NCBI RefSeq assembly: GCF_012863495.1
Contig: NZ_JAAVJL010000001.1
Coordinates: 1,736,001-1,800,000 of the forward strand
Length of the DNA stretch: 64,000 bases
Direction: 5' to 3'
From: Pseudanabaena yagii GIHE-NHR1
GTDB lineage: Bacteria; Cyanobacteriota; Cyanobacteriia; Pseudanabaenales; Pseudanabaenaceae
Position numbers and translations under genes: made by a program. Under the pieces are notes generated by a model, which was not told the origin of the DNA, made no database searches, and saw only the letters and a program-made list of their open reading frames with translations. Below, in pieces: positions 4,504 through 28,159 of this stretch; the stretch's first letter is position 1, and each line of letters begins with the position of its first letter.

Positions 4504-4627
4504 AATGTTACCTTTGGCGATCGCCTTGAATCGAGTGTTTAACGATTTACGCTGATTTAGACATTTGCTCCTAGCCAAAAGGTTCAAGTTATTTTTTGCG
4601 GTAATGTCTCTTAAGATTTTTGCTAAT

Positions 4628-4645
4628 GTTATATTTAAATATAAC
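4628..4645 (+). promoter_or_regulatory. 18-bp palindrome upstream of mazE, candidate operator
   Basis: GTTATATTTAAATATAAC is a perfect palindrome ending 13 bases before the mazE ATG and overlapping the likely -10 region. MazE-type antitoxins are known to repress their own promoters through such sites; that this one is bound is inference. Confidence 0.45.
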
Positions 4646-4658
4646 TAATAGAGAAATT

Positions 4659-4913
4659 ATGCACACCACAAATCTCCGTAAGGTCGGTGGCTCGATCATG
4701 TTGGCGATTCCTCCCGCCATTCTCGAAATTTTGAACCTGCAATCAGGAACAACTGTGGGGGTTGCGGTTGATAATGGCAGACTGATTATTGAACCTCAAC
4801 TGAAACCACAATATTCACTGGATGAGCTTTTAGCACAATGCAATCCGAATGCGCCGATAACGGAAGACGATCGCGGTTGGCTAGATGTAGAACCTGTGGG
4901 GAATGAACTGTGA
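4659..4913 (+). CDS. mazE: MazE-like antitoxin (SpoVT/AbrB fold)
   Basis: 84 residues from the ATG at 4659; an upstream alternative at 4620 (TTG) adds an unlikely tail and runs through the palindrome. The N-terminal swapped-hairpin DNA-binding motif is readable: LRKVGGSIMLAIPPAILEIL followed by a hydrophobic GTTVGVAVDNGRLIIEP strand pair. The acidic C-terminus (residues 50-84) is the toxin-neutralising tail. It neutralises the MazF-like toxin encoded immediately downstream (stop and start overlap as GTGA) and probably represses the operon through the palindrome at 4628-4645. Confidence 0.85.
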   Translation: MHTTNLRKVGGSIMLAIPPAILEILNLQSGTTVGVAVDNGRLIIEPQLKPQYSLDELLAQCNPNAPITEDDRGWLDVEPVGNEL

Positions 4914-5245
4914 AGCGTGGTGATATTTATCTTGTTTCGCTTGATCCAACGGAAGGACATGAGCAACAAGGTACTAGACCAGTTCTGATTGTCTCTCCTG
5001 ATAAATTCAATGCTTTAACCAAAGTTCCGATCGTGGTTCCAATTACATCGGGTGGAAGTTTTGCAAGAACCGCAGGTTTTGCTGTTTCTCTGGATTCTGT
5101 TGGAACTCGAACCAAAGGTGTAGTTCGTTGCGATCAACCCCGTCCTATTGATTTATCTGCTCGTAAGGCTCGAAAGTTGGAGAGTGTGCCAGATGCGATC
5201 GTTGATGATGTTTTGGCTAGGATTGTTACTCTATTTAGTCCCTAG
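4910..5245 (+). CDS. mazF: MazF/PemK-like mRNA endoribonuclease toxin
   Basis: 111 residues starting with GTG at 4910, which overlaps the mazE stop by four bases. The fold signature is clear: MKRGDIYLVSLDPTEGHEQQ, then TRPVLIVSP, VPIVVPITS, and the GVVRCDQPRPID stretch typical of PemK/MazF. Members cleave mRNA at short sequence motifs and halt growth when the antitoxin is lost. This is the first of three MazF-type toxins in the window; the three are clearly different in sequence, so they are not recent copies of one another. Confidence 0.88.
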   Translation: MKRGDIYLVSLDPTEGHEQQGTRPVLIVSPDKFNALTKVPIVVPITSGGSFARTAGFAVSLDSVGTRTKGVVRCDQPRPIDLSARKARKLESVPDAIVDDVLARIVTLFSP

Positions 5246-5366: not shown

Positions 5367-5963
5367 TCAGCGATCGCACCATTGGCGAATATTTTCTTCT
5401 AATTTTTGAATGTCTTCAGGGCAACGATTACGAATGCGATCGTAACGTTTAGCTGCTTCTTCAGCGAGGATACCTCTGCCCTGACAACGTGCTTCTAATA
5501 GTGATCGCTGTTCTGCAAATCGTATGAAATAGCTGGTTTTAGATTTTTTCTCGGCACGAATTTCCGACCATTTCCAGATTTTAGGAAGATCTTCACATCC
5601 TGCTAAAACCCATACTTCTAACTCTTGCCAAGCATTTTCACCCAAAAACTTTTTTGGAGTTCTGTACTTATCATCTAAAAATTCCTGTGCCTTCTTTTCT
5701 AGACCATCAAGTTTAGCCCTTCTATCTTCATTGCCATCGCGATCTATACATACCAAAAACAAATCAGTCATACCTCCATATCTTTCCAAAATTTCTTGAA
5801 TCTTTTCCCATCTCAACGCTTCCGCATGACCTCGAAGACGCGGATTTTTACAGACTGTGACTCTTGCTTTTGGTTTTCCGATTGCTACCATCATCGCTTT
5901 TACAATCGGTAGCACCATACTTTCGTCATTAACAAAATCTTCAAGAATAATCAGGACATTCAT
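5367..5963 (-). CDS. DUF4276/TOPRIM-like protein paired with an ATPase
   Basis: 198 residues. The N-terminus (VLIILEDFVNDESMVLPIVK) has the acidic residues E8 and D13 expected of a TOPRIM-like first motif, and LFLVCIDRDGNED supplies a DxD (D74, D76). This fits the DUF4276/OLD-type TOPRIM families, which act as nucleases or RNA/DNA-processing effectors with an ABC-type ATPase. The start ATG overlaps the stop of the upstream ATPase gene as ATGA, so the two are translationally coupled. The C-terminal half is charged and helical. I infer a two-component defence or TA-like module; catalytic activity is unproven, and the family assignment rests on motifs only. Confidence 0.65.
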   Translation of the reverse strand: MNVLIILEDFVNDESMVLPIVKAMMVAIGKPKARVTVCKNPRLRGHAEALRWEKIQEILERYGGMTDLFLVCIDRDGNEDRRAKLDGLEKKAQEFLDDKYRTPKKFLGENAWQELEVWVLAGCEDLPKIWKWSEIRAEKKSKTSYFIRFAEQRSLLEARCQGRGILAEEAAKRYDRIRNRCPEDIQKLEENIRQWCDR

Positions 5964-7270
5964 GCGTTCTGTACCTCTTCATCTTCGAGAAAATACATCG
6001 CATCTTCTAGCCAACCTGAATCTAGTAAGCTCGATAATCCGTCATTAGCAATGATTTCCCTAGCATTGGAAATATCTATGATTTTAGTTATGCGTGACTC
6101 GGCGCGATCGCCTATTCGATATATCAAAGAGGCATATTCGAGGCTGGCAGGGCTGAGGAAATTTAACAAAAGTGGTGAATGGGTAGTAATCACAATTTGC
6201 ATAGAGCCATTAGTGACTTCTTGCTCCATGAGTTGCAGCAGCAAGCTCAAACGATTGGGATGAATGCCATTTTCAGGTTCTTCAAAAAAGTAAAAGCGCG
6301 ATCGCTGATTTCCCAATAGTGCAGCGAGTAAACCTAAAAATCGCAATGTTCCATCGGATGCACTATAAGCTGTTGTTTTCTGTCCGCTTGCCTCTTCGAT
6401 TCTCAGCAAAACTTTGCCTGTAAAGTCCTCTGGAAAGTCAAAATCCTTCGCATCCATTGGCGTTAAGGCTTGCAACCAATCTAATAAAATCGCCTTACGA
6501 GTTTCGTCACGACAAATATCTAACATTACCGACGACAAATTTTCACCGCGATCGCCCAAAATATTTTGTCCCGCAAAAGTCGGCAATCTCATCAAATCAG
6601 GGCTGAGATCCAAAAATCTCATATTACCTATGGCAATCAAAGCTCTATCACAAAGCTCTCTAAGCTCTCTAGCTCTTGATATTATGATTTGTCGATCATC
6701 AACATTTATTCCTTCAAACGATGTTTCAGTTGCGACTTGCCAAAGAACGGGAATGTAATTAAGTAAACCCTGATTTTCATTTGCAGACGACCAGATATTA
6801 AAAAAGCTCACAGAAATATAGTGAGTCCCAATCCGTTCCCAATTAATGATTGGTCGGGATTCAAAAATTGGCTTCTCAAATCCTGAGCAAGTTAGTTTTT
6901 CAAATACAATGCGGGGGAAAGGTTCTGATGACTTAAGTTTAATTTCGATATGATAATTCATATCGAGTTCATTACCATTATAGATAATAGAAAATGTGAC
7001 ACTAATCGCAAAAGAATCAGTACCACAATAAGTTATTTCCTTCGTTCCACCACGAATGCCACGCCATTGCAGCTCACCACCTTCACCATATTTCTCACCA
7101 ATAATTTCGGCAATACTATAGCCTCGTGAAATACCATGCAAAAAACGAAATGCATCGCGAATATTGCTCTTGCCTGAAGCATTAGTCCCTACTAAAACTG
7201 TCAAATCTCCAAGTGAAAGCTCAGCATTTTTAAAACTTTTAAAATTTTCTAAGCGTAAGCTTTTTAACAT
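5960..7270 (-). CDS. AAA/ABC-type ATPase (AAA_21, RecF/OLD-like)
   Basis: 436 residues, cytosolic. The N-terminus LKSLRLENFKSFKNAEL followed by Walker A GTNASGKSN (lysine 34) is typical of SMC/RecF-like ATPases; a Walker B region FYFFEEPENGIHP and the switch IVITTHSPLLL follow in the C-terminal third, with a signature-like SASDGTLRFLGLL before them. The long middle replaces the coiled coil. It is the first gene of a two-gene operon with the TOPRIM-like protein. Such ATPase plus TOPRIM pairs are established in anti-phage systems (OLD, Gabija, PARIS), but this pairing cannot be assigned to any named system from sequence alone. Confidence 0.8.
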   Translation of the reverse strand: MLKSLRLENFKSFKNAELSLGDLTVLVGTNASGKSNIRDAFRFLHGISRGYSIAEIIGEKYGEGGELQWRGIRGGTKEITYCGTDSFAISVTFSIIYNGNELDMNYHIEIKLKSSEPFPRIVFEKLTCSGFEKPIFESRPIINWERIGTHYISVSFFNIWSSANENQGLLNYIPVLWQVATETSFEGINVDDRQIIISRARELRELCDRALIAIGNMRFLDLSPDLMRLPTFAGQNILGDRGENLSSVMLDICRDETRKAILLDWLQALTPMDAKDFDFPEDFTGKVLLRIEEASGQKTTAYSASDGTLRFLGLLAALLGNQRSRFYFFEEPENGIHPNRLSLLLQLMEQEVTNGSMQIVITTHSPLLLNFLSPASLEYASLIYRIGDRAESRITKIIDISNAREIIANDGLSSLLDSGWLEDAMYFLEDEEVQNA

Positions 7271-7339: not shown

Positions 7340-7675
7340 CTAGGTTAATAACGCCTCAATTTTGCCGATAACTTCATCAATAATACTTACAGAAGCCTTC
7401 TCAATAAAATCTATCTTTCTCGCTTGCCAATCTAAAGTCTTAATCTGATCCGCAAGAATCACTCCCTTAGTCTTAGTATCCGTGAGTAGAACCTCAAACT
7501 TCCATTCCTTAGTTTTAGAAGTAATCGGACAAAGCAGAGCCAAATTTGACCTTTGATTATAGGCGATCGGTGAAATCACAAAAGCAGGACGATGCCCAGA
7601 TTGTTCATGCCCAGCCTGTGGATCGAAATCTAGCCAAACAATATCACCACGATCGGGAATGTATGGCTTTACCAT
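7340..7675 (-). CDS. mazF: MazF/PemK-like toxin (second mazEF)
   Basis: 111 residues with the PemK/MazF signatures RGDIVWLDFDPQAGHEQSG, RPAFVISPIAYN, LALLCPITS and GVILADQIKTLDWQAR. Like its family it should be a small mRNA interferase. Its start overlaps the end of the antitoxin gene by 7 bases. It follows the ATPase/TOPRIM pair on the same strand with a 69-bp gap and lies downstream of its own antitoxin, as usual for mazEF. Confidence 0.87.
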   Translation of the reverse strand: MVKPYIPDRGDIVWLDFDPQAGHEQSGHRPAFVISPIAYNQRSNLALLCPITSKTKEWKFEVLLTDTKTKGVILADQIKTLDWQARKIDFIEKASVSIIDEVIGKIEALLT

Positions 7676-7911
7676 GCTTCATTCCCAACAGAAACACCCG
7701 TAGAAACTTCTGCATGGAGATGCTCAGAAGTCATCCCATCCAGCAATTCATCTAGAGTATATTTTTTACGCCGATGCGGAGTCAAAACAATCTTGCCATC
7801 AATAATATCAATACTGATTTCGCTTCCAGCTTGAATTTGCACCTGTTCAGCTATAGCTTGCGGAATGCGTACAGCTAAACTATTACCCCACTTCGCGATC
7901 GCGGCAGTCAT
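7669..7911 (-). CDS. mazE: MazE-like antitoxin (second mazEF)
   Basis: 80 residues from the ATG at 7911, preceded by a GGTGA ribosome-binding site; a TTG at 7926 would add five residues but lacks a good site. AAIAKWGNSLAVRIPQ is the classic MazE/AbrB-type N-terminus, and the C-terminal acidic tail (SEHLHAEVSTGVSVGNEAW) binds toxin. An 8-bp direct repeat just upstream (7927-7945) is a candidate autoregulatory site. Confidence 0.87.
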   Translation of the reverse strand: MTAAIAKWGNSLAVRIPQAIAEQVQIQAGSEISIDIIDGKIVLTPHRRKKYTLDELLDGMTSEHLHAEVSTGVSVGNEAW

Positions 7912-7926
7912 AAAAATCACCGTCAA

Positions 7927-7945
7927 TGTATCTATATTGTATCTA
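7927..7945 (-). promoter_or_regulatory. direct repeat upstream of mazE, candidate operator
   Basis: TGTATCTA occurs twice with an 11-bp period (one helical turn), 16 bases upstream of the chosen mazE start. Spacing and position suit an antitoxin operator; binding is inferred. Confidence 0.35.
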
Positions 7946-7980
7946 CATTAGCTTAATTTACGATCTTTGGTTTCTTTGAA

Positions 7981-8023
7981 GCGATCGCCTTGCTAATTCG
8001 TGATGATGGACTTAGGCGATCGC
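7981..8023 (+). repeat. 43-bp separator repeat, copy 2
   Basis: Matches copy 1 (5277-5319) over its full length with a few substitutions and lies between the second mazEF and vapBC. Both ends are GCGATCGC octamers. Confidence 0.6.
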
Positions 8024-8074
8024 GCTAAAATGATTAATATCGGCAACATAAAACTTTGTAAGAGAGGTGATTAT

Positions 8075-8299
8075 ATGTTATTAAAAGAACTCTTAAACGA
8101 AGCTAAAAACTTAGACCTACAAGAGCAAATTCAACTAGCTACACAGTTATTGCAATGGGTAGAAATAAAAATCAATCAAAAGCCTAAAGACTTGTCACCT
8201 AAACAATTACGACAAGCAGGACTAGGTTTAGGATCTTGTACATTTACGGCTGACTTTGATGATCCATTACCAGACGAACTCTGGATTGGCGAATCATGA
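8075..8299 (+). CDS. VapB-like antitoxin partner of a PIN toxin
   Basis: 74 residues from the ATG at 8075, which has a good site (AGAGAGGTG) upstream; the longer frame from 8000 runs through the repeat and is unlikely. The N-terminal helix pair (LLKELLNEAKNLDLQEQIQL) resembles DUF2281-type or other small cyanobacterial VapB-like antitoxins, and the acidic tail FDDPLPDELWIGES would wrap a toxin. Its stop overlaps the PIN gene start as ATGA. The same layout recurs at 12825-13082, and the N-terminal helices of the two are similar. Confidence 0.75.
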   Translation: MLLKELLNEAKNLDLQEQIQLATQLLQWVEIKINQKPKDLSPKQLRQAGLGLGSCTFTADFDDPLPDELWIGES

Positions 8300-8679
8300 A
8301 ATTATTGCTGGATACCCACACCTTCATATGGTGGCATAGCGAGCCAGAATGTATTACTCAAAACACCCTGAGCTTACTTCAAGATCCCGACCATGAAGTA
8401 ATGCTTAGCGTAGTCAGTTTATGGGAAATGCAAATCAAAATTCAGTTAGGTAAACTTACTCTCAGAGACGATCTAGAAGTTATGGTAAAGATTCAGCAGG
8501 AGCGAAATAATATTAGTCTGATATCTGTAACATTTTCTCACGTTCTAGAATTAAAGACTTTACCTTTGCACCATAAAGATCCCTTTGATAGAATTCTCAT
8601 AGCTCAGACTAAAGTTGAAAATGCAACATTAATCAGTCGAGACTTAGTTTTTAAAAATTATGAATGTTCTTTGATTTAG
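8296..8679 (+). CDS. vapC: VapC-like PIN-domain ribonuclease toxin
   Basis: 127 residues. The PIN acidic residues are visible: D6 in KLLLDTHTFIWW, the glutamate in VSLWEMQIK, the aspartates in HHKDPFDRILIAQ and the final LISRD. VapC toxins cleave tRNA or rRNA when not bound by VapB. It is coupled to the antitoxin by a 4-base overlap. The related VapC at 12433-12828 shares SLWE, GKL, LP.HH.DPFDR and LIAQ, so the two belong to the same PIN subfamily. Confidence 0.9.
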   Translation: MKLLLDTHTFIWWHSEPECITQNTLSLLQDPDHEVMLSVVSLWEMQIKIQLGKLTLRDDLEVMVKIQQERNNISLISVTFSHVLELKTLPLHHKDPFDRILIAQTKVENATLISRDLVFKNYECSLI

Positions 8680-8680
8680 T

Positions 8681-8719
8681 GATTGCTATAACTCGTGATG
8701 ATAGATTTTAGGCGATCGC
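8681..8719 (+). repeat. separator repeat, copy 3 (shortened)
   Basis: GATTGCTATAACTCGTGATG and the following GATAGATTTTA-GGCGATCGC match the core and right end of copies 1 and 2, but the left GCGATCGC is degraded. It starts right after the vapC stop. Confidence 0.5.
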
Positions 8720-8811
8720 CCCACAAGATGCGATCAGATCCTTTAAACTGGAATAGCTCTCAGATTTTCTGTCTAAATCTTGAAAATCATTTCCAAATAT
8801 TTCCAAAGCTA

Positions 8812-9252
8812 ATGTCAAGCCCGACCCATTTACCTGAAGCCATCGATCGCATTGTCCAGCGATTTCAGAGGCTCTCCGATCCAAAGCTACGTTATGAGCA
8901 ATTGATTTTATACGGGAAGAAACTCGAAGCATTTCCCGAAACTCTCAAAACCCCTGAAAACAAAGTGCAGGGCTGTGTATCACAGGTATATGTGGTAGCG
9001 AAACTAGATAGCAACGAGCGAGTCGTATTTGCAGGGGACTCGGATGCGTTGATTAGTAAAGGATTTGTCGGTTTGCTCTCGGTCTGTATGGGCGGCTTAA
9101 CCCAAAAGGAAATTGAGTTGCTCACCCCCGATTTTATTAAAGACACAGGTTTAGTCGCTAGCCTCACGCCATCTCGCGCCAATGGCTTTTATAACGTCTT
9201 CAAAAAAATGCAACAACAGGCGATCGAAATTGAATTACCCAGTGTTCGCTAA
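8812..9252 (+). CDS. sufE: SufE family sulfur-acceptor protein
   Basis: SufE accepts persulfide sulfur from the cysteine desulfurase SufS for Fe-S cluster assembly. 146 residues from the ATG at 8812, which gives the usual N-terminus (PEAIDRIVQRFQRLSDPKLR); the longer frame from 8695 crosses the repeat. The catalytic cysteine is C55 in VQGCVSQVYV, the family hallmark; GFVGLLSVCMGGLT and SRANGFYNVFKKM follow. It is a single gene ending at a strong bidirectional terminator. The suf genes proper are not nearby. Confidence 0.93.
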   Translation: MSSPTHLPEAIDRIVQRFQRLSDPKLRYEQLILYGKKLEAFPETLKTPENKVQGCVSQVYVVAKLDSNERVVFAGDSDALISKGFVGLLSVCMGGLTQKEIELLTPDFIKDTGLVASLTPSRANGFYNVFKKMQQQAIEIELPSVR

Positions 9253-9285
9253 ATAAAAAGCCTCGCAAAGCGAGGCTTTTTATTT
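9251..9285. terminator. bidirectional terminator between sufE and the dehydrogenase gene
   Basis: AAAGCCTCGC / GCGAGGCTTT hairpin with an AAA loop, with symmetric AAATAA and TTATTT flanks. It separates two convergent genes and works on both strands. Confidence 0.88.
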
Positions 9286-10390
9286 AAACGGTGGCGGTAA
9301 TTGGACTGGTAGTAGAAACCATTGCCGCCAGAACTTGGCTTGGGGAAACGGTAAAGGGTAAGCGATGAATATCGGAATTTGGCTGACAGGCGATCGCGGC
9401 AATATGTTCTAATTCGGCAAGGGTGACTTGACTTAAGCCAAGATCGGCAAGGGTAGTCGGTAAGCCAATCTCTTGATAAAACTTCAGCAATTGATGACGC
9501 GACGAAGCAGCGAGTTGATTGCCTTGAAATTCCTCTAGACGCAATTGCACCAAAATGCCATAGGCAACCTTTTCGCCATGCAATGTGCCGTGGGTTTGAT
9601 GCAGATGAGTTAACGCATTGTGAACTGCATGGGCGGCGACAGTACGACAATTTGCGCCACCGATCCCACCGATCGCTCCCGCCAGACATACCGATGCATC
9701 AACAACTTCGCGCCATGCTTGACTATTGGGATTAGCGATCGCTTCGGCAGACTTTTGAAACAAAATATCACGCAGGATTCTTGCCTCTTGCACGGCGGCA
9801 ATGACCATCGTTTTCTCGCTACTGCCACTACTGACCGAGGACTCGTACCATTTAGCGATCGCATCGCCAATGCCTGAAACAAGGGTGCGCTTAGGAGCCG
9901 TAGCAATTACGTCGTAGTCCACAAACATCATGTCAGGACAGCGATCGAGGGTCACGTCATAGTCAAAGGCTCCGTGAGCATCATAGACATTGCTAAGGGC
10001 TGTCCATGCGGCACAGGTTGCGCCCGTGGTCGGCACGGTGACAATCGGTAACTGACATTGATGGGCAACTAATTTCGCTGTATCAAGGACTTTGCCGCCA
10101 CCAATACCCACAATTACATGGGGATTTTCTTGCTGCACGAGGCGACGCAGCATCGCTAAATTTTCATCACTACAATCGGCGATCGCTGGTGCATAAATAA
10201 TTTCGCGATCGGTATTATGAAAATAGCTTGCAGTAACTTGACCTGCGGTTTCCCCAGCAATGACTAGAGCTTTATTCCCATAGCGTGACAAATATTTCGG
10301 GAGTTGCGATAAAATCCCGTTTCCCCGTAAAAGTTGGGCTGGTGCGATCGCCAAAATCGGTAATGCTTCCACCGTAAGTGTGTCTGACAT
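9284..10390 (-). CDS. iron-containing alcohol dehydrogenase / glycerol dehydrogenase family protein
   Basis: 368 residues, cytosolic. The NAD-binding half carries VIVGIGGGKVLDTAK (residues 92-106) and IVTVPTTGATCAAWTAL; the metal-binding half has D176 in SGIGDAIAKWYE, H254/H257 in VAAHAVHNALTH and H271 in GTLHGEKVAYG, matching the Asp-His-His set of glycerol dehydrogenase. The substrate is uncertain: the group includes glycerol dehydrogenase and glycerol-1-phosphate dehydrogenase relatives. It converges on sufE. No operon partner is visible. Confidence 0.88.
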   Translation of the reverse strand: MSDTLTVEALPILAIAPAQLLRGNGILSQLPKYLSRYGNKALVIAGETAGQVTASYFHNTDREIIYAPAIADCSDENLAMLRRLVQQENPHVIVGIGGGKVLDTAKLVAHQCQLPIVTVPTTGATCAAWTALSNVYDAHGAFDYDVTLDRCPDMMFVDYDVIATAPKRTLVSGIGDAIAKWYESSVSSGSSEKTMVIAAVQEARILRDILFQKSAEAIANPNSQAWREVVDASVCLAGAIGGIGGANCRTVAAHAVHNALTHLHQTHGTLHGEKVAYGILVQLRLEEFQGNQLAASSRHQLLKFYQEIGLPTTLADLGLSQVTLAELEHIAAIACQPNSDIHRLPFTVSPSQVLAAMVSTTSPITATV

Positions 10391-10502
10391 CAGGTTAAGA
10401 CTTGGTAAACATAAGCTCTATTCTATCTCTTCTGCTTCTAAATCTGCCAATTCTGCCGTGCAAAGATAGGCGGCATATCCATTTCAACGATAAAATCGGT
10501 CA

Positions 10503-11363
10503 ATGTTTGACAATATTTGCAAATACCTTGCTGAAACCTACTCTAGTGACATTGCCTCATGGTTACTCGGTGAGTCAATTTCACTTACCCAAGTACAACC
10601 TCAAGAGTTAGCGGTTGAGCCAATTCGTGCGGATAGTTTGATTTTGCTGGAAGCTGAAGGTCTGCTATTGCATTTGGAGTTTCAAACCAAAGCTGACCCG
10701 CAAATTCCGTTTCGGATGCTGGACTATTGGGTACGTGGCAAAAGGCGTTTTCCCGATAAAAAGATCCGCCAATTCGTGATTTATCTAAGAGAGACAAGCT
10801 CAAATTTAGTTTTTCAGCAAGCGTTTCAAGATGACTCTACCTACCACAGGTTTGGAGTCATCCGCCTGTGGGAACAACCTGTTGGCAAATTTTTAGAATA
10901 TGTAGGAATGTTGCCGTTTGCTATACTTGTAGGGCAAGGTGATAAAGAACGCTTGTTACAAGGTATTGCCGAAAAAATTGATCACATTGATGATTTAAAT
11001 ACTCGTGAAACCATCTCAGCAGCAACTTATGTCTTAGCTGGTATGGTTTTGGAGGAAAATATAATTAAGCAAATTTTAAGGAGAGATATCATGCAGGAGT
11101 CTGTAACATATCAAGCAATTCTTCGTGAGGGTCGCCAAGAAGGGCTTAAAGAGGGGCTTAAAGAGGGTGAAATTATAGGACGCAAGCAAGGTTTGTTGAC
11201 TATTATTTTACGATTGCTGACGCGCAAGTTTGGGACTTTGCCACCAAAGTTGCATACAAGGATTGCAAGGCTACAGATTCCCCGTTTAGAGAGTCTTGCG
11301 GAGGCGATTTTGGATTTTGAGAGTGTTGCTGATTTGGAACTTTGGTTGAACAAGAAGAAGTAG
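10503..11363 (+). CDS. Rpn/PD-(D/E)XK-type nuclease-transposase family protein with DUF4351 tail
   Basis: 286 residues. The N-terminal half (ADSLILLEAEGLLLHLEFQT, RMLDYWVRGKRRF, VIYLRE) follows the recombination-promoting nuclease (Rpn/PDDEXK_2) pattern common in cyanobacteria; the acidic strand D..LLHLEFQ carries glutamine where the family's ExK lysine would stand, so catalytic capacity is unclear. A charged EGRQEGLKEGLKEGEIIGRK linker with two EGLK units joins it to a C-terminal DUF4351-like segment (ILRLLTRKFGTLPPKL, IPRLESLAEAILDFESVADL). No neighbour explains its role. Confidence 0.75.
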   Translation: MFDNICKYLAETYSSDIASWLLGESISLTQVQPQELAVEPIRADSLILLEAEGLLLHLEFQTKADPQIPFRMLDYWVRGKRRFPDKKIRQFVIYLRETSSNLVFQQAFQDDSTYHRFGVIRLWEQPVGKFLEYVGMLPFAILVGQGDKERLLQGIAEKIDHIDDLNTRETISAATYVLAGMVLEENIIKQILRRDIMQESVTYQAILREGRQEGLKEGLKEGEIIGRKQGLLTIILRLLTRKFGTLPPKLHTRIARLQIPRLESLAEAILDFESVADLELWLNKKK

Positions 11364-11391
11364 CTGCTTGTTGCTTTCTTATCCAATTGAC

Positions 11392-11763
11392 CTAATTTCT
11401 AAAAGGAATTGATTCAACCATTGCATTTTGTTTTTTTGCGGAGACTAGTTTACGGATGCGAGGTGATTGTAGTCTTAGCACCATGTCGTCTTCGGGTATG
11501 CCTCTAGCAATGAGTTCTTGATCGACAGATATTTCAGTAGAGTTATGTTGTAGCCAAACTTTGTTATCAATGATGTCAATCCGCATGGGACAGCCATAAA
11601 TTCGTCGAGCGTCTTGCCAGCCAATATGAACTAATAAGTAGCGATCGCGCTTTTCATCAAATACTAATTCAGCCGTGACGTTTTCGTTAGGTGAGACGCT
11701 TTCTTGGGCATATTCTTCGAGAAATGTACGCACAATTTGGCGATAACGTTCTAATCGATCCAT
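11392..11763 (-). CDS. XisI-like protein without an adjacent XisH
   Basis: 123 residues. It aligns by eye with the XisI at 27411-27746: (M)(D/E)(R/K)L..YR.I...L, LVFDE..D.YLL...GW, RI.GC...IDIIDNKVWLQ, and ELIARGIP..DMVL. XisI was described as a control factor for excision of the fdxN element in Nostoc, but such genes are abundant in genomes with no such element. Unusually, the conserved tail of the other copy (VRPYTGYAIA) is replaced by a different, longer end (IRKLVSAKKQNAMVESIPFRN broken into two parts here), and no XisH lies beside it. It follows a MazF gene by 23 bases on the same strand. Confidence 0.75.
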   Translation of the reverse strand: MDRLERYRQIVRTFLEEYAQESVSPNENVTAELVFDEKRDRYLLVHIGWQDARRIYGCPMRIDIIDNKVWLQHNSTEISVDQELIARGIPEDDMVLRLQSPRIRKLVSAKKQNAMVESIPFRN

Positions 11764-11786
11764 TGTTCTATTTCCTCTTTTTCTGT

Positions 11787-12125
11787 TTAGCTGATGATAA
11801 CGCTAAAAGTTTGGACAACTAAATCAACAAAATCTTTGGGCAAAATTTCTCCAGTTGTTTTCCACCAGCGCTGATTGAGATCGAGGGTTCTTATTTGTTC
11901 GGCAATAACCGAACCCTGAATTTTAAAACCTTCGGGAATAGGGATCATCATTTTGATTTCAGGTTTAATCGTGCTGGTAATGGGATGAACGATTACTATT
12001 CCCTGACGTTTTTGATTGTATTGCGTGTGGCTGATTACTAAACATGGACGAGCGTTTCCTGCCTGTTCTCTTCCTTGGGTTGGGTTAAGATTAATTCTGA
12101 TAATTTCACCTCTTTGGATATTCAT
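11787..12125 (-). CDS. MazF/PemK-like toxin paired with a non-MazE antitoxin
   Basis: 112 residues with MazF hallmarks: IQRGEIIRINLNPTQGREQ, ARPCLVISHTQYN, IVHPITS and GSVIAEQIRTLDLNQR. Predicted mRNA interferase. Its start overlaps the stop of the upstream gene as ATGA. The partner is not of MazE type, so this is a mixed toxin-antitoxin pairing. Confidence 0.85.
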   Translation of the reverse strand: MNIQRGEIIRINLNPTQGREQAGNARPCLVISHTQYNQKRQGIVIVHPITSTIKPEIKMMIPIPEGFKIQGSVIAEQIRTLDLNQRWWKTTGEILPKDFVDLVVQTFSVIIS

Positions 12126-12394
12126 AGAAGTTCGCGCCCTAGTGGTTCACTTTCAGCAAATTCCGTTACATCGTCAGGATATGTAAAGTTATTGGGAATA
12201 GTGGATATTAGGTCATTAAGGGTTAGTTTTTGATGCTGTGCGTTGATATCTGAGCTTTTGACCGCTATATTGGGAGAACTTGTAACTGGGGCGTATGTTT
12301 GTTGTAAGAAGGCGATAAAGTTAAGGGCTTGGCGCTGGGCTTCGATGGGTAATGACTCGAAGGCTTTGAATAGTTCTTGTTGTGTCATATTCAT
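12122..12394 (-). CDS. putative antitoxin (DUF2281-like) for the MazF toxin
   Basis: 90 residues. The N-terminus (MTQQELFKAFESLPIEAQRQ ALNFIAFLQQ) is the helix pattern of DUF2281-like antitoxins, usually met with VapC, and the C-terminal NDLISTIPNNFTYPDDVTEF has the acidic tail expected for toxin wrapping. It overlaps the mazF start by four bases. There may be two starts (MNMTQQ): either ATG is plausible. Confidence 0.65.
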   Translation of the reverse strand: MNMTQQELFKAFESLPIEAQRQALNFIAFLQQTYAPVTSSPNIAVKSSDINAQHQKLTLNDLISTIPNNFTYPDDVTEFAESEPLGRELL

Positions 12395-12432
12395 GAGTTA
12401 ATCTTAATTCTACCTATCATATTTTATCTGTT

Positions 12433-12828
12433 TTACTTCTGCCCAAATACATTTACCTGATATTGACAAAAGATGTGATCTTCTGAAACTAAGGTTAAAG
12501 TTTCTGATTTTGCCTGAGCAATTAATAGACGATCAAATGGATCTCGATGGTGAAACGGTAGGTTTTGTAGTGTTAGTAAGTGTGCAATATCAATTGGTAA
12601 AATCTTGATTCCGCTAGGCAACACAAAATCACAGATAATTTTTTCTAGTGGAGTTTCTAATTGGAGTTTACCAAGGCTGGTTTTGATCGCAATTTCCCAT
12701 AAGCTCACTATGCTGATATACAGACTATTGGTTTCATCTTCTATTACCTGTCTGACTCTAGGGCTAAGGTTTTGATTGCCTTCTAACAACCAAATCAAAA
12801 TATGAGTATCCAGTAATAATTTCATCAC
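12433..12828 (-). CDS. vapC: VapC-like PIN-domain toxin (second vapBC)
   Basis: 131 residues. D7 in KLLLDTHILIWLLEG, the glutamate in SLWEIAIKTSLGKL, the aspartates in HHRDPFDRLLIAQ, and LVSED form the PIN acid cluster. It is the nearest relative in the window of the VapC at 8296-8679 but differs at many positions. Its start overlaps the antitoxin stop by four bases. Confidence 0.9.
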   Translation of the reverse strand: MMKLLLDTHILIWLLEGNQNLSPRVRQVIEDETNSLYISIVSLWEIAIKTSLGKLQLETPLEKIICDFVLPSGIKILPIDIAHLLTLQNLPFHHRDPFDRLLIAQAKSETLTLVSEDHIFCQYQVNVFGQK

Positions 12829-13082
12829 ATATGCTCAGCAAAATCAGCAAGGGGAGCATCGAAATCTGGAGCCATTTTTATTTTGTCTTTCATACAGCCA
12901 AAAAGATCTTTACGGCTTAATGTTGGGATTGTAGTGGTTTTATCGGTAGATATTTGATTAGATATTTCATTGAGGTGTGGTGGTTGCTGCCAAATATTTA
13001 TCAGATGTGAAACTAGTTGTAGTTGCTCTTGGGGGTTAAGTTGCGTCGCGTCGGCTAAAACTTTAGTTAATAAGGGACTCAT
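12825..13082 (-). CDS. VapB-like antitoxin (second vapBC)
   Basis: 85 residues. The N-terminal helices LLTKVLADATQLNPQEQLQL parallel the antitoxin at 8075-8299, and the tail FDAPLADFAEHM is acidic. The start codon has a strong GGAGGT site; a 12-bp motif repeated 35 bp apart (13091-13137) lies immediately upstream. It sits 59 bp downstream of the CHAT-TPR gene on the same strand. Confidence 0.72.
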   Translation of the reverse strand: MSPLLTKVLADATQLNPQEQLQLVSHLINIWQQPPHLNEISNQISTDKTTTIPTLSRKDLFGCMKDKIKMAPDFDAPLADFAEHM

Positions 13083-13090
13083 AATTTACC

Positions 13091-13137
13091 TCCATCGCCT
13101 CATTGCTTTGGTCTTAACATTGTATTCCATCGCCTCA
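13091..13137 (-). promoter_or_regulatory. 12-bp direct repeat upstream of vapB, candidate operator
   Basis: TCCATCGCCTCA occurs at 13091-13102 and 13126-13137; the copy nearer the gene overlaps the ribosome-binding site. The position suits autoregulation by VapBC; no binding evidence. Confidence 0.3.
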
Positions 13138-13141
13138 GTCA

Positions 13142-15241
13142 TCATCCTAGTTCTCTAATTCTATTTTGCACATCGTCATAATCTGATGCTCTACCCTGCT
13201 GTTGATAGAGTTCCGAGGCTTTCCGAAAATCCACTAATGCATTTCGTCCCTCACCTATCTGTTGATATGCATTTCCTCGGTTATGGTAAGCATCCGCAAG
13301 ACTTCTCGCATCCCAAAAAGAATTAAATCGAATTGCTTGGTTAAAGTCGGCTATAGCTTTTTGAGTATCTCCTAAGCTTGCCATAACTATTCCGCGATCG
13401 CAGTACGATTCAGAGTCATTGTATTCAAGAGAAATAGCTTTTGTAAAAGCAGCAATAGCATCTTGTGGACGGCGAAGACCATAAAACAAGATGGCTCCAC
13501 GTGTATGGTATGCGGCGGAATAACTAGGATTAAAGCGAAGGGATTGCTCGACATCAAGCAATGCTTCTTGGCTATTTCCCATTAGATATTTTATCCATGC
13601 TAAACCGTTATATGCATTAGCATTGTCAGGATTGAGGCGAATAGCTTCGTTGTAGTCGGCGATCGCTCCTTGTTTGTCACCTAATACAGACTTCGCTATC
13701 CCGCGATTGCTGTAAGCATCAGCAAGATTAGGATTGAGGCGGATGACTTCGTTGTAATCGGCGATCGCTCCTTGTTTGTCTCCTAAATCATACTTCGCTA
13801 ACCCTCGATTGTAGTAAGCAGTAGCATAATCAGGATTGAGGCGGATTGCTTCGTTGTGATCGGCGATCGCTCCTTGTTTGTCTCCTAAATCATACTTCGC
13901 TAACCCTCGATTGGAGTAAGCAGCAGCAAGATTAGGATTGAGGCGGATTGCTTCGTTGTGATCGGCGATCGCACCTTGTTTGTCGCCTAATTCATACTTC
14001 GCTACCCCGCGATTGTTGTAAGGATCAGCATCACTAGGATTGAAACGGATGGCTTCGTTGTGATCGGCGATCGCTCCTTGTTTGTCTCCTAAATCATACT
14101 TCGCTAACCCTCGATTGTAGTAAGCAGTAGCATAATCAGGATTGAGGCGGATGGCTTCGTTGTGATCGGCGATCGCTCCTTGTTTGTCTCCTAAATCATA
14201 CTTCGCTAACCCTCGATTGGAGTAAGCAGCAACAAGATTAGGATTGAGGTGGATGGCTTCGTTGTAGTCGGCGATCGCACCTTGTTTGTCGCCTAATTCA
14301 TACTTCGCTACCCCGCGATTGGAGTAAGCAATAGCATCATTAGGATTGAGGAGGAGTGCCTCGTTGTAGTCAGCGATCGCACCTTGTTTGTCGCCTAATT
14401 CATACTTCTCATAAGCGCCATCGAAGCACTCAGTAGCCGATAAAGAACGCTGTGGGTTTGGCTGAGAAACAGGAATCTGCGGTGGAACGGGAATAGATTG
14501 AGAAAATGATTCACCTTTCTTTCTTAAAACGAGAATTTGAGATGCTTCATTATTGGCAAGATCGAACTCGATCGCCACCTTCCCCCATTCAAAAGCCTTT
14601 TCATAACCCTTCCCCGCCCCGATCGCATCATAAAACCCCTGCGAAAACTTAATTGCCACATTATCCGCCACCTGATCGCGCATCCCAATCGTAAACAGAA
14701 TATTTGCTGATATCGCATTACCCTGCACATCCGAATAACAAGCATTCAAAACCACACATTCCAGATGGTCTTCACAAAGCTGCAACAAATTCGCCAGTGG
14801 TTGCGCGGGAACAAATTTAATTTCATCAGAATTAGTCGAACGCGATCGCACCGCCCCATCATCTGAACGATACAGCGAACCCATTGACTCATCACTTACA
14901 AACAGTAAACCCCTATCCCCAGCACCGTGACCACTAAAATGCAAAACATGAGGCTCCAAATCCAACAAAGCGCGGCGCAACTCTGAAGGTGTCGCCGCCA
15001 GCCGATATTCCACCGCAAAATTATCGCGCTTGCGCGATCGCCTTAATGCCTCTTGGATGGTCTTCACCTCATGGTCTAGCTTTAGAGGTGATGAACCCAA
15101 AGGGTTAGCCGCTACCACTAAAATTCTGACGCGATCGCCCGACTGCTCAAGCCTTTCCGCAATGCCAAGATTGAGGTTTTGGACATTTACCGTTCCGTCT
15201 CGCACATTAATACCAAGTTTTTCGGCTAAAGGATCGGTCAT
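13142..15241 (-). CDS. CHAT-domain (caspase-like) protein with 12 TPR repeats
   Basis: 699 residues. Residues about 37-245 form a CHAT peptidase domain with the caspase-type dyad H105 in VLHFSGHGAGD and C168 in VVLNACYS. A short proline-rich linker leads to about 12 TPR units (pattern AYSNRGLAKYDLGDKQGAIA and following 14 residues). CHAT-TPR proteins act as proteases in immunity and cell-death pathways (the CRISPR-linked Craspase TPR-CHAT is one studied example); here no CRISPR is present, so the trigger is unknown. It is first in a minus-strand series followed by vapBC, antitoxin-mazF and xisI. Several TPRs are nearly identical in DNA. Confidence 0.88.
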   Translation of the reverse strand: MTDPLAEKLGINVRDGTVNVQNLNLGIAERLEQSGDRVRILVVAANPLGSSPLKLDHEVKTIQEALRRSRKRDNFAVEYRLAATPSELRRALLDLEPHVLHFSGHGAGDRGLLFVSDESMGSLYRSDDGAVRSRSTNSDEIKFVPAQPLANLLQLCEDHLECVVLNACYSDVQGNAISANILFTIGMRDQVADNVAIKFSQGFYDAIGAGKGYEKAFEWGKVAIEFDLANNEASQILVLRKKGESFSQSIPVPPQIPVSQPNPQRSLSATECFDGAYEKYELGDKQGAIADYNEALLLNPNDAIAYSNRGVAKYELGDKQGAIADYNEAIHLNPNLVAAYSNRGLAKYDLGDKQGAIADHNEAIRLNPDYATAYYNRGLAKYDLGDKQGAIADHNEAIRFNPSDADPYNNRGVAKYELGDKQGAIADHNEAIRLNPNLAAAYSNRGLAKYDLGDKQGAIADHNEAIRLNPDYATAYYNRGLAKYDLGDKQGAIADYNEVIRLNPNLADAYSNRGIAKSVLGDKQGAIADYNEAIRLNPDNANAYNGLAWIKYLMGNSQEALLDVEQSLRFNPSYSAAYHTRGAILFYGLRRPQDAIAAFTKAISLEYNDSESYCDRGIVMASLGDTQKAIADFNQAIRFNSFWDARSLADAYHNRGNAYQQIGEGRNALVDFRKASELYQQQGRASDYDDVQNRIRELG
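13590..14420. repeat. tandem 102-bp TPR-coding repeats
   Basis: Eight units of 102 bp encode TPR motifs and each carries CGATCGC followed by a CCTTGTTTGTC stretch. Units 3 and 6, and 4 and 7, are close to identical over tens of bases, which points to recent unit duplication or gene conversion within the gene. Confidence 0.8.
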
Positions 15242-18800: not shown

Positions 18801-19097
18801 ATGTCTACTTCAATAGATAACACCACTTCTAGCCAAAATCGCGATGTAACGATTAACATTCGTGTAAAACAAGAGCAACGGAATATCATTGATCGTGCTG
18901 CCGAAGTACAGGGTAAAACGCGCTCTGAATTTATGCTTGAGTCAGCATATCAGAAAGCACAAGATGTTCTTTTAGATTGGACTTTCTTTGATTTAGACTC
19001 ATCGAAGTATCAAGAATTTACAGCGTTATTGGATAGAATTCCTCAACCAAATAAAAAGTTACAGAAGTTACTAACAACTAAATCTCCGTGGGAATAA
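18801..19097 (+). CDS. DUF1778 (TacA/AtaR-like) antitoxin
   Basis: 98 residues. The ribbon-helix-helix DNA-binding part is RDVTINIRVKQEQRNIIDRA followed by GKTRSEFMLESAY; the C-terminal segment (WTFFDLDSSKYQEFTALLDR) is the conserved toxin-binding helix of DUF1778 proteins. It neutralises the GNAT toxin encoded downstream with a 10-base overlap and probably represses the operon through the palindrome at 18749-18760. Confidence 0.9.
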   Translation: MSTSIDNTTSSQNRDVTINIRVKQEQRNIIDRAAEVQGKTRSEFMLESAYQKAQDVLLDWTFFDLDSSKYQEFTALLDRIPQPNKKLQKLLTTKSPWE

Positions 19098-19597
19098 GTT
19101 TAGATAATTTGCGATCGCCTGAAAAGCTTAATTTATCTCACCAGATTAAGGGTTTTGACTCTGGCAATAGTCAACTAGACGACTGGTTAAAGAACAGAGC
19201 GATTAAAAATGAAATAGAAGGTGCTTCGCGTACCTATGTTCTGTGTAATGGTAATGTTGTGATTGGTTTCTATTGCCTCGCTAATGGCTCAGTGTTTCAA
19301 TCTGTCGCTACGGGTAAGGTGCGGCGAAACATGCCCGATCCGATTCCTGTAATGGTGATCGGAAGATTAGCAATTGATCGCAGTTGGCAGGGGAAAGGAC
19401 TTGGTCGTGCCTTGCTAAGAGACGCGATTTTAAGAACTCTACAAGCGTCTGAAATTGCGGGAATACGCGCTATCCTTGTCCATGCTATTTCTGAGAATGC
19501 GAAGCTTTTTTATGAGAAATGTGGGTTTACAGCTTCGCCGATTGATGAGATGACTCTTATGATCAGGATTAAAGATGCGATCGCAGTATTCGCGTAA
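19088..19597 (+). CDS. GNAT acetyltransferase toxin (TacT/AtaT-like)
   Basis: 169 residues starting with GTG at 19088 inside the antitoxin gene. TacT-type toxins acetylate the amino group of aminoacyl-tRNA and stop translation. Seen: the family start SGNSQLDDWLKNRAI, VIGRLAIDRSWQGKGLGRAL with the acetyl-CoA pyrophosphate loop (QGKGLG), and the C-terminal LFYEKCGF with the tyrosine used in catalysis. Two copies of a 169-bp repeat frame the pair, suggesting the cassette was inserted. Confidence 0.92.
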   Translation: MGISLDNLRSPEKLNLSHQIKGFDSGNSQLDDWLKNRAIKNEIEGASRTYVLCNGNVVIGFYCLANGSVFQSVATGKVRRNMPDPIPVMVIGRLAIDRSWQGKGLGRALLRDAILRTLQASEIAGIRAILVHAISENAKLFYEKCGFTASPIDEMTLMIRIKDAIAVFA

Positions 19598-22880: not shown

Positions 22881-23180
22881 CTAAGGGTTTTCTTCAAACA
22901 TAGCTTCTAGATTCCGATCGCCTCTAATCACTCGCATAATTTCTATGTCTTCATCAATGACGCGATAGAAGATGATGTAGTTTTGCATGGGAATACCACG
23001 CAGATAATTGCGAATCTGGGAATAGCTTCGACCAATTAAGGGGAATTGGGTGAGATACCGACATTTTTTGGTGAATTCATTGAGTAGCCGATCGCCTGTT
23101 TCTACGTTTCTTTCTGTGAAATAGTCGATGATGTCTTCAAGGTCGCGGATAGCTGTGGGGGATATGGTGTATTGAGGCAT
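22881..23180 (-). CDS. parE: ParE/RelE-superfamily toxin
   Basis: 99 residues. The ParE pattern is clear: YTISPTAIRDLEDIIDYFTE, LLNEFTKKCRYLTQFPLIGR, LRGIPMQNYIIFYRVIDEDI and EIMRVIRGDRNLEAMF. Studied ParE toxins poison DNA gyrase, though RelE-like ribosome-dependent RNases share the fold. The gene follows parD by 6 bases. Confidence 0.9.
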   Translation of the reverse strand: MPQYTISPTAIRDLEDIIDYFTERNVETGDRLLNEFTKKCRYLTQFPLIGRSYSQIRNYLRGIPMQNYIIFYRVIDEDIEIMRVIRGDRNLEAMFEENP

Positions 23181-23186
23181 GGGAAA

Positions 23187-23444
23187 TTAAGCTTCGCGGT
23201 TTTTGTGAAGTCTTGCTCTTAGCTGATTAATAGCTGTTTCGCCATCAAGTCCTTCACCGCGATCAAGTTCTGCGGCGGCGATGTCGATTTTGTTGCCGAG
23301 TTCTTCGACCCAGAGATCATAATGGTTGCGTTTTTCTAGAAGTTGCAATGCTTCGGCAATTACTTCAGTGGCGTTGGCGTAGCGCCCTGTGGCAAGCTGG
23401 GTTTGAATGAATTGCTCTTGTTCGGGTTGTAGGGTGATAGGCAT
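23187..23444 (-). CDS. parD: ParD-like antitoxin
   Basis: 85 residues with the ParD/CC2985 N-terminal ribbon-helix-helix (MPITLQPEQEQFIQTQLATG RYANATEVIAEALQLLEKR) and a helical acidic C-terminus that wraps the toxin. A TTATATC motif repeated with a 9-bp period lies upstream (23464-23479) and could be its operator. The parDE pair is bracketed by direct repeats of about 223 bp. Confidence 0.9.
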   Translation of the reverse strand: MPITLQPEQEQFIQTQLATGRYANATEVIAEALQLLEKRNHYDLWVEELGNKIDIAAAELDRGEGLDGETAINQLRARLHKNREA

Positions 23445-26700: not shown

Positions 26701-27398
26701 AGATAATCCTGCGGATTCGCTACCTTACTCGCCAAACCTTGCATCAAAGGCAAAGCCTCCGCCAGCGTAAACCCCGCCATCTCCACCGCATAGCCAATAT
26801 TAAACGCCGAAGTATTATGACTCTGAATCAAATCCGTCGGTGTCGCCACACCCAAAAACGAAAAAGTGAGGCGATTATATTCGGGCTTAGTCGGACGATC
26901 TTCAAAAAACGATCGCACTAATCCAAAGAAATCATCCATCCCAAACTTGAGACTCAACAGGCGATCAATTTCTTCCACAAAAATCACAATCGGCGCATCA
27001 ATCTCTTGCAACACGACTGTTTCAATAAACTCCGCAAAGCGCTGCACAGGCGACAGCAACTCCCGTTCCCTAATCCAACTTCGCAAATCAAACTTACTTT
27101 TTAAATTCAGATCCCCCACCAAACTCCGAATCGCGCTGGCATACCACTGCTCACAAGTCACCTCCACCCCAATCTTCTGCGGATCGATGGTCGCGCACAC
27201 AATCCCCTCCGCTTGCAATTTATGCGTTACCCGCACCCGCAAACTCGATTTCCCCATCTGCCGACAGTTAAACACATAGCAATATTTACACTCCTTGAGT
27301 AAGTCGTAATAGTCGCGATCGCATTGGCGCTCTACATAACTAGGCGCATCCGCAGGGAGACTACCACCAACTTGATAATTAAAATTTTGGTTACTCAT
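23718..27398 (-). CDS. AAA-like ATPase with transmembrane segment and 15 WD40 repeats (STAND-like)
   Basis: 1226 residues. N-terminal AAA_35-like ATPase: Walker A-like VFNCRQMGKSSLRVR (K50) and Walker B IVIFVEEIDRLL (about 137-147). A charged helical part (EAERLARKSAEEANQIL) precedes one hydrophobic segment near 465-490 (GILTGTVLAAGLVIAGASLS). From about 575 on there are 15 WD40 repeats (pattern ANFSPDGSKIVTASFDKTAK then VWDI), enough for two propellers. This is the layout of STAND-type signal proteins with a WD40 sensor. It ends a four-gene operon after CHAT-ATPase, XisH and XisI, with a 12-bp gap to xisI. The trigger is unknown. Confidence 0.88.
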   Translation of the reverse strand: MSNQNFNYQVGGSLPADAPSYVERQCDRDYYDLLKECKYCYVFNCRQMGKSSLRVRVTHKLQAEGIVCATIDPQKIGVEVTCEQWYASAIRSLVGDLNLKSKFDLRSWIRERELLSPVQRFAEFIETVVLQEIDAPIVIFVEEIDRLLSLKFGMDDFFGLVRSFFEDRPTKPEYNRLTFSFLGVATPTDLIQSHNTSAFNIGYAVEMAGFTLAEALPLMQGLASKVANPQDYLEEAVKWTGGQPFLIQRLLGMMEKELAGIATPENIAAWVENLVQERIVTNWESQDAPPHLTTIRDRVLSVEEKLRGRMLGCYQQVLADGELEDDRSEERSKLRLTGLVVRRDGRLISYNPIYAAVFNNAWVEGQLADLRPEFYASAFRAWQGSEIKDGFLLRGEALRNAEIWARGKRLSDGDEDFLRESREVEKVEVVLKLEAERLARKSAEEANQILIEAEQIARNRVRSGTLILAGILTGTVLAAGLVIAGASLSLKEAKQSTEQSEVAKETALRQIALAQVKLESVNAKVAFLDNRGIESQLLALRAGYKLKQIEKSLIDWQEIKQSDVVPILQQTIYRVPQINHFGQKLVSANFSNDGSKIFTTSEDKKIRTWDLKGNIITVIELTGYTKQIWNANFSSDGSKILTSSNDGTVEVWDLKGSLIASLKGHTSEIASANFSPDGSKIVTASADKTTRIWNTNGSQIAELKGHTDSVYSANFSPDGSKIITASWDKTARLWDLDGNQITEFNGHTDPILSANFSHDGSKVITASWDKTARLWDLDGNQITEFKGHTKRLSSANFSLNDNKIVTTSDDGTTRIWDNKGNQIDELKGSISTNASFSPDGNKIVTVSADKTLRVWNIKGSQIAELKNNKDIVWSANFSPDGSKIFTTSIDTTAESMIGRVWDINGNQIAELKGTFIKNFSPDSSKIITTSIDNKASLWDFNGNLLAEFKGHQGQVNSANFSPDGSKIVTASFDKTAKLWGIKGNLITELKDHKGIIWNANFSPDGSKIVTASFDKTAKVWDIQGNLVADLKGHPDIVGDANFSPDGNKIVTASFKIANVWDIKGNLIAELRGHTSTVRSPAFSPDGNKIVTSSDDKTARVWDVKGNLIAELKGDIDIGSNANFSPDGSKIVTTSDKTVQVWDVLGNLITELKGHTKRVNSANFSSDGSKIVTASVDGTARVWEVKIEGDLHRLLILGCDKLHDYLTNSEIASDEDRQMCGIAPRQK

Positions 27399-27410
27399 AG
27401 TTTTTTTTAC

Positions 27411-28150: not shown

Positions 28151-28159
28151 AAGGCTAAT

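Follow-up and report, generated by a model that had tools for sequence, protein, structure and literature searches.

An XisI gene behind a MazF toxin pair in Pseudanabaena yagii, probably left over from an XisH-XisI pair

The gene string and the remnant of xisH

A string of six minus-strand genes lies at positions 11392-15241 of a 64,000-nt stretch of Pseudanabaena yagii GIHE-NHR1 (the window), and it ends in a gene for XisI that is without its usual partner, XisH. The genes were checked by position and by Pfam match. All six genes named in a first-pass annotation (CHAT-TPR, VapB, VapC, a VapB-like antitoxin, MazF and XisI) are where it had placed them, and the tight packing that it described is borne out, with gaps of 59, -4, 38, -4 and 23 bp along the string. 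The first gene encodes a 699-aa CHAT-TPR protein (13142-15241; Pfam CHAT, 37.3 bits, and TPR repeats), and relatives have caspase-type genes at this place. It is followed by a toxin-antitoxin (TA) pair made up of a VapB-like DUF2281 antitoxin (12825-13082; PF10047, 27.0 bits with a cut-off of 26.5) and a PIN (VapC) toxin (12433-12828; PF01850, 60.9 bits), which overlaps its antitoxin by 4 bp. The second pair consists of a PemK/MazF toxin (11787-12125; 74.5 bits), which belongs to the MazF family, and a small upstream gene (12122-12394) that overlaps it by 4 bp. This small gene is a presumed DUF2281-like antitoxin, and its Pfam matches lie below the cut-offs (DUF5958, 20.1 bits; DUF2281, 19.7 bits). 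XisI (11392-11763) is full length. Its Pfam match (PF08869) reaches 122.8 bits over residues 1-106, and it matches the solved XisI structures 2nlv, 3d7q, 2nwv and 2nvm.

XisH is usually encoded directly upstream of XisI, and the two genes overlap by 13 nt in 93 of 99 readable pairs. At the window XisI, just the last 12 codons of xisH, stop included, are left (TEKEEIEQWID*, 11751-11786, minus strand). This xisH fossil lies between MazF, whose stop codon abuts it, and XisI, whose start it overlaps by 13 nt; its empirical p is 0.0008 against 1,322 background open reading frames (ORFs). The fossil holds an AG-rich stretch ahead of XisI, and the preservation of that stretch is as expected if XisI expression was kept. 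A scan for promoters and terminators gave no clear signal, with 8 promoter-like sites against 9.8 expected and 6 terminator-like sites, all on the opposite strand.

The window XisI has its closest relatives, at 84-89% identity, in the same genus. In one of them (genome G413, locus L079), the same chromosomal spot reads DUF4351-XisI-XisH-caspase-TPR. The DUF4351 gene (window 10503-11363, plus strand) is a syntenic flank common to the window and this sister genome, as are downstream genes beyond it, which we take to be glycerol-dehydrogenase-like and SufE-like. The DNA of the two genomes is 82.3% identical across window 8743-11784, and the similarity stops 3 bp away from the end of the MazF gene. 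In G413 and in another relative, G404, xisH ends in IEKEEIEQWID* and TEKEEIEQWIE*, respectively, each one residue off the window fossil. A further relative (genome G193, locus L083) carries the same MazF pair at the same spot, with the same junction and the same TEKEEIEQWID* fossil. The orthologue of the small gene at window 12122-12394 is L083:7326-7598, and the two genomes are 91% identical in DNA over the MazF pair and the XisI start. XisI of G193 is cut to 76 aa, whereas the window XisI is full length; a truncated XisI was also found at locus L084. The first gene in G193 is of the caspase type, with 81% DNA identity to the caspase part of G413 and, by eye, a SUMF1-like tail.

Since the window and G193 share the MazF pair and its junction, they point to one replacement of xisH, most simply before their split. 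The alignments show that the DUF2281-like/MazF pair displaced xisH in an ancestor common to both, with the junction at the MazF stop codon. The head gene of the locus appears to be variable, with caspase types in relatives and CHAT-TPR in the window. Because the window string came about when MazF replaced xisH, its gene order is no evidence for a system of CHAT and XisI, and the relatives mark the string as a patchwork and not a CHAT operon.

Toxin genes in the xisH slot of other genomes

A survey of XisI gave 173 rows, which came to 166 distinct places after 7 duplicates were removed. They include 80 sampled loci that were taken from lists ranked by similarity to the window XisI, which is not a random draw. 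XisH is the regular partner of XisI: it is intact at 106 places and a stub or damaged at 29, with none found at 30 and one place unreadable. A 3' fossil of xisH in the 13-nt overlap register is kept at 17 of the 30 places with no XisH found, the threshold being the 99th percentile of 1,322 other ORF starts.

The xisH slot was defined as the 150 bp upstream of XisI on the same strand; MazF, PIN and ParE were counted as toxins, and the toxin list was compiled by hand from Pfam and local model results. A type II toxin stands just upstream of XisH-less XisI at 9 of 59 places (MazF 6, PIN 2, ParE 1), which represent about 6 events. A search of 106 pairs with local PemK and PIN models and with Pfam tallies gave no such toxin before intact xisH. 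The difference has a p of 6e-5, or of 0.0014 when shared events are collapsed to 6, and it persists without own-genome and targeted loci (5/46 vs 0/91, p 0.0037). The TA half of the earlier proposal is supported in a modified form. As a control, the gene before xisH was looked at in the 110 paired rows; in 52 of them it lies on the same strand and no more than 150 bp away. Pfam scans of 46 such genes (50-699 aa) gave no toxin among the matches listed, the best 25 of 64 families; a rescan of 22 of the 24 small ones, covering all 9 families, gave no toxin, one HicB antitoxin and one DUF433. The neighbours of control genes were likewise without a toxin among the matches listed, both for 54 neighbours (best 25 of 115 families) and for 23 small ones that were rescanned (best 25 of 29 families).

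A second exchange can be read from close relatives. Loci L166 and L077 have a DUF2281-like gene, MazF and XisI in this order, and loci L155 and L076 have XisH before nearly the same XisI. The XisI genes are 94.6% and 93.6% identical in DNA, and homology stops 3 bp before the XisI ATG. At L159, a PIN gene occupies the slot with the same breakpoint. Comparison with relatives shows a swap, as distinct from mere adjacency, in two MazF cases (window/G193 and L166/L077) and one PIN case (L159). Such junctions are a clean natural record of a toxin module displacing another gene and leaving its neighbour undisturbed. The source genome itself holds two more cases, near-identical units of a small gene, MazF and XisI on contigs C5 and C8 (L014:5677-10993, L015:5092-9616). 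Both contigs are plasmid-sized, and a gene that looks Mfd-like by eye lies beyond each unit on the other strand. A plasmid of Pseudanabaena galeata CCNP1313 has a hypothetical gene, MazF and an XisI that is 97.4% identical to the C5 copy.

XisI beside MazF has accumulated few amino acid changes. Synonymous and non-synonymous differences number 9:3 between L077 and L166 and 19:6 between L014 and L015 (pooled 28:9, p 9e-12), and the ratio of non-synonymous to synonymous rates (dN/dS) of the window XisI is 0.06-0.18 against four relatives. Substitution counts of this kind show apparent purifying selection on XisI beside MazF. This selection could mean that XisI functions as a third component in the adopted MazF, PIN or ParE modules, acting as a common regulator or antidote while the toxin slot is refilled. 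Such a role would fit the position of the toxins, which in 8 of the 9 places lie on the strand of XisI and end 6-40 bp before it. It would also fit their diversity: between the three MazF cases, the MazF proteins share about 29-31% identity or no detectable similarity, and PIN (L159) and ParE (L037) occur too. However, the toxins of the window and of L014, L015, L077, L166, L159 and L037 keep a small upstream gene that looks like an antitoxin, with partial Pfam support, and the MazF pair of G193 is intact next to its shortened XisI. Since G193 has the MazF pair without an intact XisI, that pair needs none at that spot. We consider a third-component role unlikely.

Several candidates were dropped during the survey. 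Locus L047 is not a toxin swap; there, the opening codons of xisH (MAAKDKFHEAVK) run in frame into XisI (L047:1465-1836). At L102, the upstream genes are an HsdS-like gene and a Pfam-negative gene. Also not counted as slot toxins were a YoeB gene 314 bp away at L049, a HicB-like gene 165 bp away at L132, and L046. The frame at L046:1214-1498 is Pfam-negative and antitoxin-like by eye; it is fused in frame to the C-terminal end of xisH and overlaps XisI by 13 nt. On two cyanobacterial plasmids (L235:1354-2321, L236:1351-2318), XisI overlaps by 4 nt a 213-codon gene, which is annotated as an N-6 DNA methylase on one of them. This gene recurs in the XisH slot, and the upstream gene of L092 may be a relative. 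The idea that orphan XisI form a separate clade found no support, as the loss of XisH is scattered across a weakly resolved XisI tree. An orphan-specific C-terminal tail was also dropped, as the paired XisI of L025 and L051 are without the usual C-terminal motif as well.

Retention of XisI and the nature of the XisH-XisI pair

The two partners are retained unequally. In the source genome and 14 others, which were picked from genomes with hits and few contigs and are not a random draw, each of the 73 intact XisH is directly followed by an intact XisI. Among 125 intact XisI in these 15 genomes, 73 have an intact XisH and 52 have none (19 with a remnant, 33 alone). Intact copies cover at least 95 of 110 model positions for XisI or at least 118 of 134 for XisH, with no stop; 14 XisI and 35 XisH fell below these limits and were used as remnants only. 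Since XisI is the smaller target (110 against 134 model positions), target size works slightly in the opposite direction and cannot give 52 to 0. Residues D39, E58 and K60 of XisH are conserved in 102, 102 and 101 of 102 sequences, and we take them to be catalytic. XisH is among the previously identified PD-(D/E)XK members that were used as seeds in a family search, according to a passage of PMC1189080, and it can be described as a predicted nuclease of that family. The four xisH and seven xisI given for Thiomargarita in a passage of PMC4853749 follow the same direction as the asymmetry.

The asymmetry is most simply explained if XisH does harm in the absence of XisI; alternatively, XisH may be unable to fold or persist on its own and decay fast. 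If XisH is harmful, the constant company of XisI (73/73) and the purifying selection on XisI beside MazF make XisHI look like an addiction pair, and they suggest a toxin-like XisH and an antidote-like XisI, with toxicity and neutralization as the presumed activities. Most type II TA pairs have the antitoxin gene first, with exceptions such as HigBA. XisHI resembles such systems in being a small, multi-copy, two-gene operon whose nuclease partner is never alone in the 15 genomes and whose other partner is commonly orphaned. Unlike them, it has the gene for the putative toxin, XisH, first. Most loci of the XisH-XisI pair (PF08814/PF08869, fdxN element excision controlling factors) agree in families, gene order and overlap, and the six-gene string differs in having MazF where XisH stood. 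The MazF and VapBC (PIN) pairs are ordinary in their Pfam families and 4-bp overlaps, and the window MazF pair is unlike others in sitting with codon precision in the former xisH slot.

Taken together, the string is best read as a stack of exchangeable conflict genes, in which XisI would be the leftover of an XisH-XisI pair whose xisH was swapped for a MazF pair, and in which XisH is presumed to be harmful without XisI. We give this reading a probability of about 0.72. By comparison with relatives, a DUF2281-like/MazF pair replaced xisH, sparing its last 12 codons and the XisI start, and the CHAT-TPR gene and the PIN pair are neighbouring modules. If XisH is harmful without XisI, XisH would be lost first and XisI retained, as with toxin and antitoxin. 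Orphan XisI could then be under selection by neutralizing XisH from other XisHI copies (13 in this genome) or from arriving copies, and with such a guard role mainly those replacements that keep XisI expressed would survive. The stranded XisI may guard against other XisH, may have joined the new toxin, or may be on its way out. The retention asymmetry would fit an XisI that serves a partner of the toxin type. A bolder version is possible but rather doubtful: XisHI would be an unrecognized addiction module, and XisI would be an antidote-type anchor whose upstream slot has been refilled by MazF or PIN modules several times independently and near codon precision. In this version XisI would still be expressed, under selection and functional, whether as a guard against XisH from other copies or in the service of the adopted toxin. 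Two observations lower its probability: just 1 of 7 plasmid orphans has a toxin, and the substitution ratio is low in the truncated XisI of G193 as well.

A number of observations speak against the leftover reading. Restricted to the sampled loci (L091-L170), the slot counts are 3/27 vs 0/55 (p 0.033). The local PIN model missed two divergent PINs that Pfam found, which weakens the count of 0/106 for pairs. L135 retains an xisH stub, and its PIN is 129 bp away; L037 and L014/L015 have no relative that displays an earlier state, and L166/L077 have no fossil. Among seven examined plasmid XisI without an annotated XisH, a toxin lies directly upstream in the P. galeata case alone; the other six have an MFS transporter, an opposite-strand gene, a four-helix-bundle gene, a methylase-type gene (two plasmids) and an unnamed gene. 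The slot pattern may also owe something to hot-spot insertion, given how common TA genes are in these genomes. The first 50 codons of the truncated G193 XisI also have a low ratio (9 to 4), so the ratio may record earlier history and is no proof of present function. XisH precedes XisI, which departs from the antitoxin-first order of most type II pairs, and no PADLOC model matched the window XisH and XisI. The published role also differs, with XisH as an endonuclease and XisI as a directionality factor (a passage of PMC4853749 citing Hwang 2014).

Some of these observations would also fit a neutral hot-spot, with TA modules inserting at any place in decaying accessory DNA and orphan XisI as remnants on their way to loss. 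The window is rich in TA-like pairs, XisI is truncated in L083 and L084, and most examined plasmid orphans have no adjacent toxin. The loss of XisH is scattered, too: a tree of 161 XisI, from which repeats and sequences below 95 aa were excluded, calls for at least 48 changes, though it comes from a short alignment and is weakly resolved, with 66 of its 158 inner branches open. On the other hand, XisI beside MazF shows few non-synonymous changes, though the truncated copy calls for caution here; every one of the 73 intact XisH is accompanied by XisI; and the junctions leave XisI and the AG-rich stretch upstream of it untouched. A purely neutral origin seems improbable to us.

XisH and XisI are annotated as excision factors, though many cyanobacterial genomes have several copies. 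XisI could retain this textbook role, with XisH dispensable for it. Both xisH and xisI are described as required for excision of the fdxN element in Nostoc 7120 (in a passage of PMC4874684). This published function needs XisH too, and 21 XisI places in the source genome exceed the need of one element; we regard the excision role as very improbable for the orphan XisI. The suggestion that XisI proteins are partners of other systems and not of element excision stands in part: the evidence on partners is of the toxin type, and the published role in Nostoc 7120 is not contradicted for the fdxN element. Elsewhere, XisH and XisI are listed among domains of predicted contractile-injection toxins (2024, a passage of PMC11297309), and in Lyngbya the two genes are reported to be transcribed together with hoxW (a passage of PMC2674450). 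Literature on XisI or XisH with toxin-antitoxin, antitoxin, toxin or nuclease, or defense, as far as its text was accessible and with most subscription journals outside the scope, gave no proposal that XisHI is a TA pair. By term search, Xis is unmentioned in the main text of a 2009 TA survey (PMC2701414) and in the accessible text of PMC4963859. If XisH is indeed a nuclease of the toxin type that XisI keeps in check, a family that is widely annotated would take on a new meaning, and the copy number and loss pattern of XisH and XisI would become understandable.

CHAT genes and other neighbours

It had also been noted that the window holds two CHAT-led strings with XisI, 8 kb apart, and CHAT or TA systems had been raised as possible partners of XisI. 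Both strings are present, 8.5 kb apart, but the second (23718-29767, minus strand) also carries XisH. It is headed by a CHAT protein (28160-29767; the CHAT match extends slightly beyond this start) and continues with XisH (27734-28150), which overlaps XisI by 13 nt and matches structures 2inb and 2okf. The paired XisI (27411-27746) follows, and an AAA_35-WD40 protein (23718-27398) ends the string.

The source genome comprises 5.57 Mb in 9 contigs and has 21 XisI, 38 CHAT, 16 PemK and 25 PIN places, together with 15 XisH rows, 13 of them full length; at this density, 0.24 XisI are expected per 64 kb. A rotation test was applied after fragments were merged (CHAT rows 39 to 38, PemK 17 to 16), with contig C6 taken as 60 kb and C9 left out. 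MazF lies directly upstream of XisI on the same strand at 3 of 21 places against 0.005 expected (p 0.0001), and CHAT lies within 5 kb at 5 of 21 against 1.33 expected (p 0.011). The strong signal in this genome is the adjacency of MazF and XisI, and the CHAT enrichment is mild.

If CHAT and XisI formed one system and the string were one operon, this mild enrichment would be accounted for, as would locus L007 of the same genome. There, the closest own-genome XisI paralogue (86%) lies 1.4 kb from a CHAT-TPR paralogue (7492-9138), and a trace of the xisH end is present. However, an opposite-strand gene separates the two at L007, relatives of the window locus have caspase-type genes instead, and CHAT stands directly before XisH in 1 of 110 paired rows. 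In the sample of 80 loci across cyanobacteria, CHAT occurs within 4.5 kb of XisI at 3 loci and at 0 of 18 orphans; the CHAT models were built from few seeds and divergent members may escape, and the 18 orphans were defined less strictly than the 27 rows counted as XisH-less in these loci. MazF lies within the same distance at 6 and PIN at 4 of the 80 loci, and none of CHAT, MazF and PIN was found in 40 controls, each a stretch of the same contig some 80 kb from the XisI locus. CHAT as a general partner of XisI was dropped for want of enrichment in the phylum-wide sample, though it is enriched in the source genome, and a joint CHAT-XisI system is hardly probable. The suggested partnership has support in a modified form for toxins, which precede XisI at 9 of the 59 XisH-less places, and mostly none for CHAT. 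Overall, the observed gene order holds, the CHAT interpretation does not generalize, and the TA interpretation is probably right in spirit, with XisI best read as the antidote-like half of XisHI.

Caspases are clan CD proteases. As in known CHAT and caspase conflict loci, the place of CHAT-TPR is taken by caspase-TPR genes in relatives; such loci have no general link to XisI in the phylum sample. CHAT or caspase genes head XisHI or XisI at several loci of the genus, and we read this local association as a mobile island with interchangeable parts. At L007, L080 and L081, a TumE-type toxin with partner genes, a caspase or CHAT gene and XisI recur as an island whose outer flanks differ, and the DNA similarity to the window begins within the last XisI codons.

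More TA-like pairs are found in the window at 4620-5245, 7340-7926, 8000-8679, 18801-19597 and 22881-23444, making this a TA-rich region; MazEF at 4620-5245 and the PIN genes were named by a tool, and the others were identified partly by eye. At 5367-7270, an ATPase (5960-7270) that matches the PADLOC candidate PDC-M07A (236.8 bits) and a small overlapping gene form a candidate defence pair. The TPR part of the CHAT protein in the six-gene string (13630-14440) consists, by eye, of near-identical DNA repeats, whose copy number may be variable.

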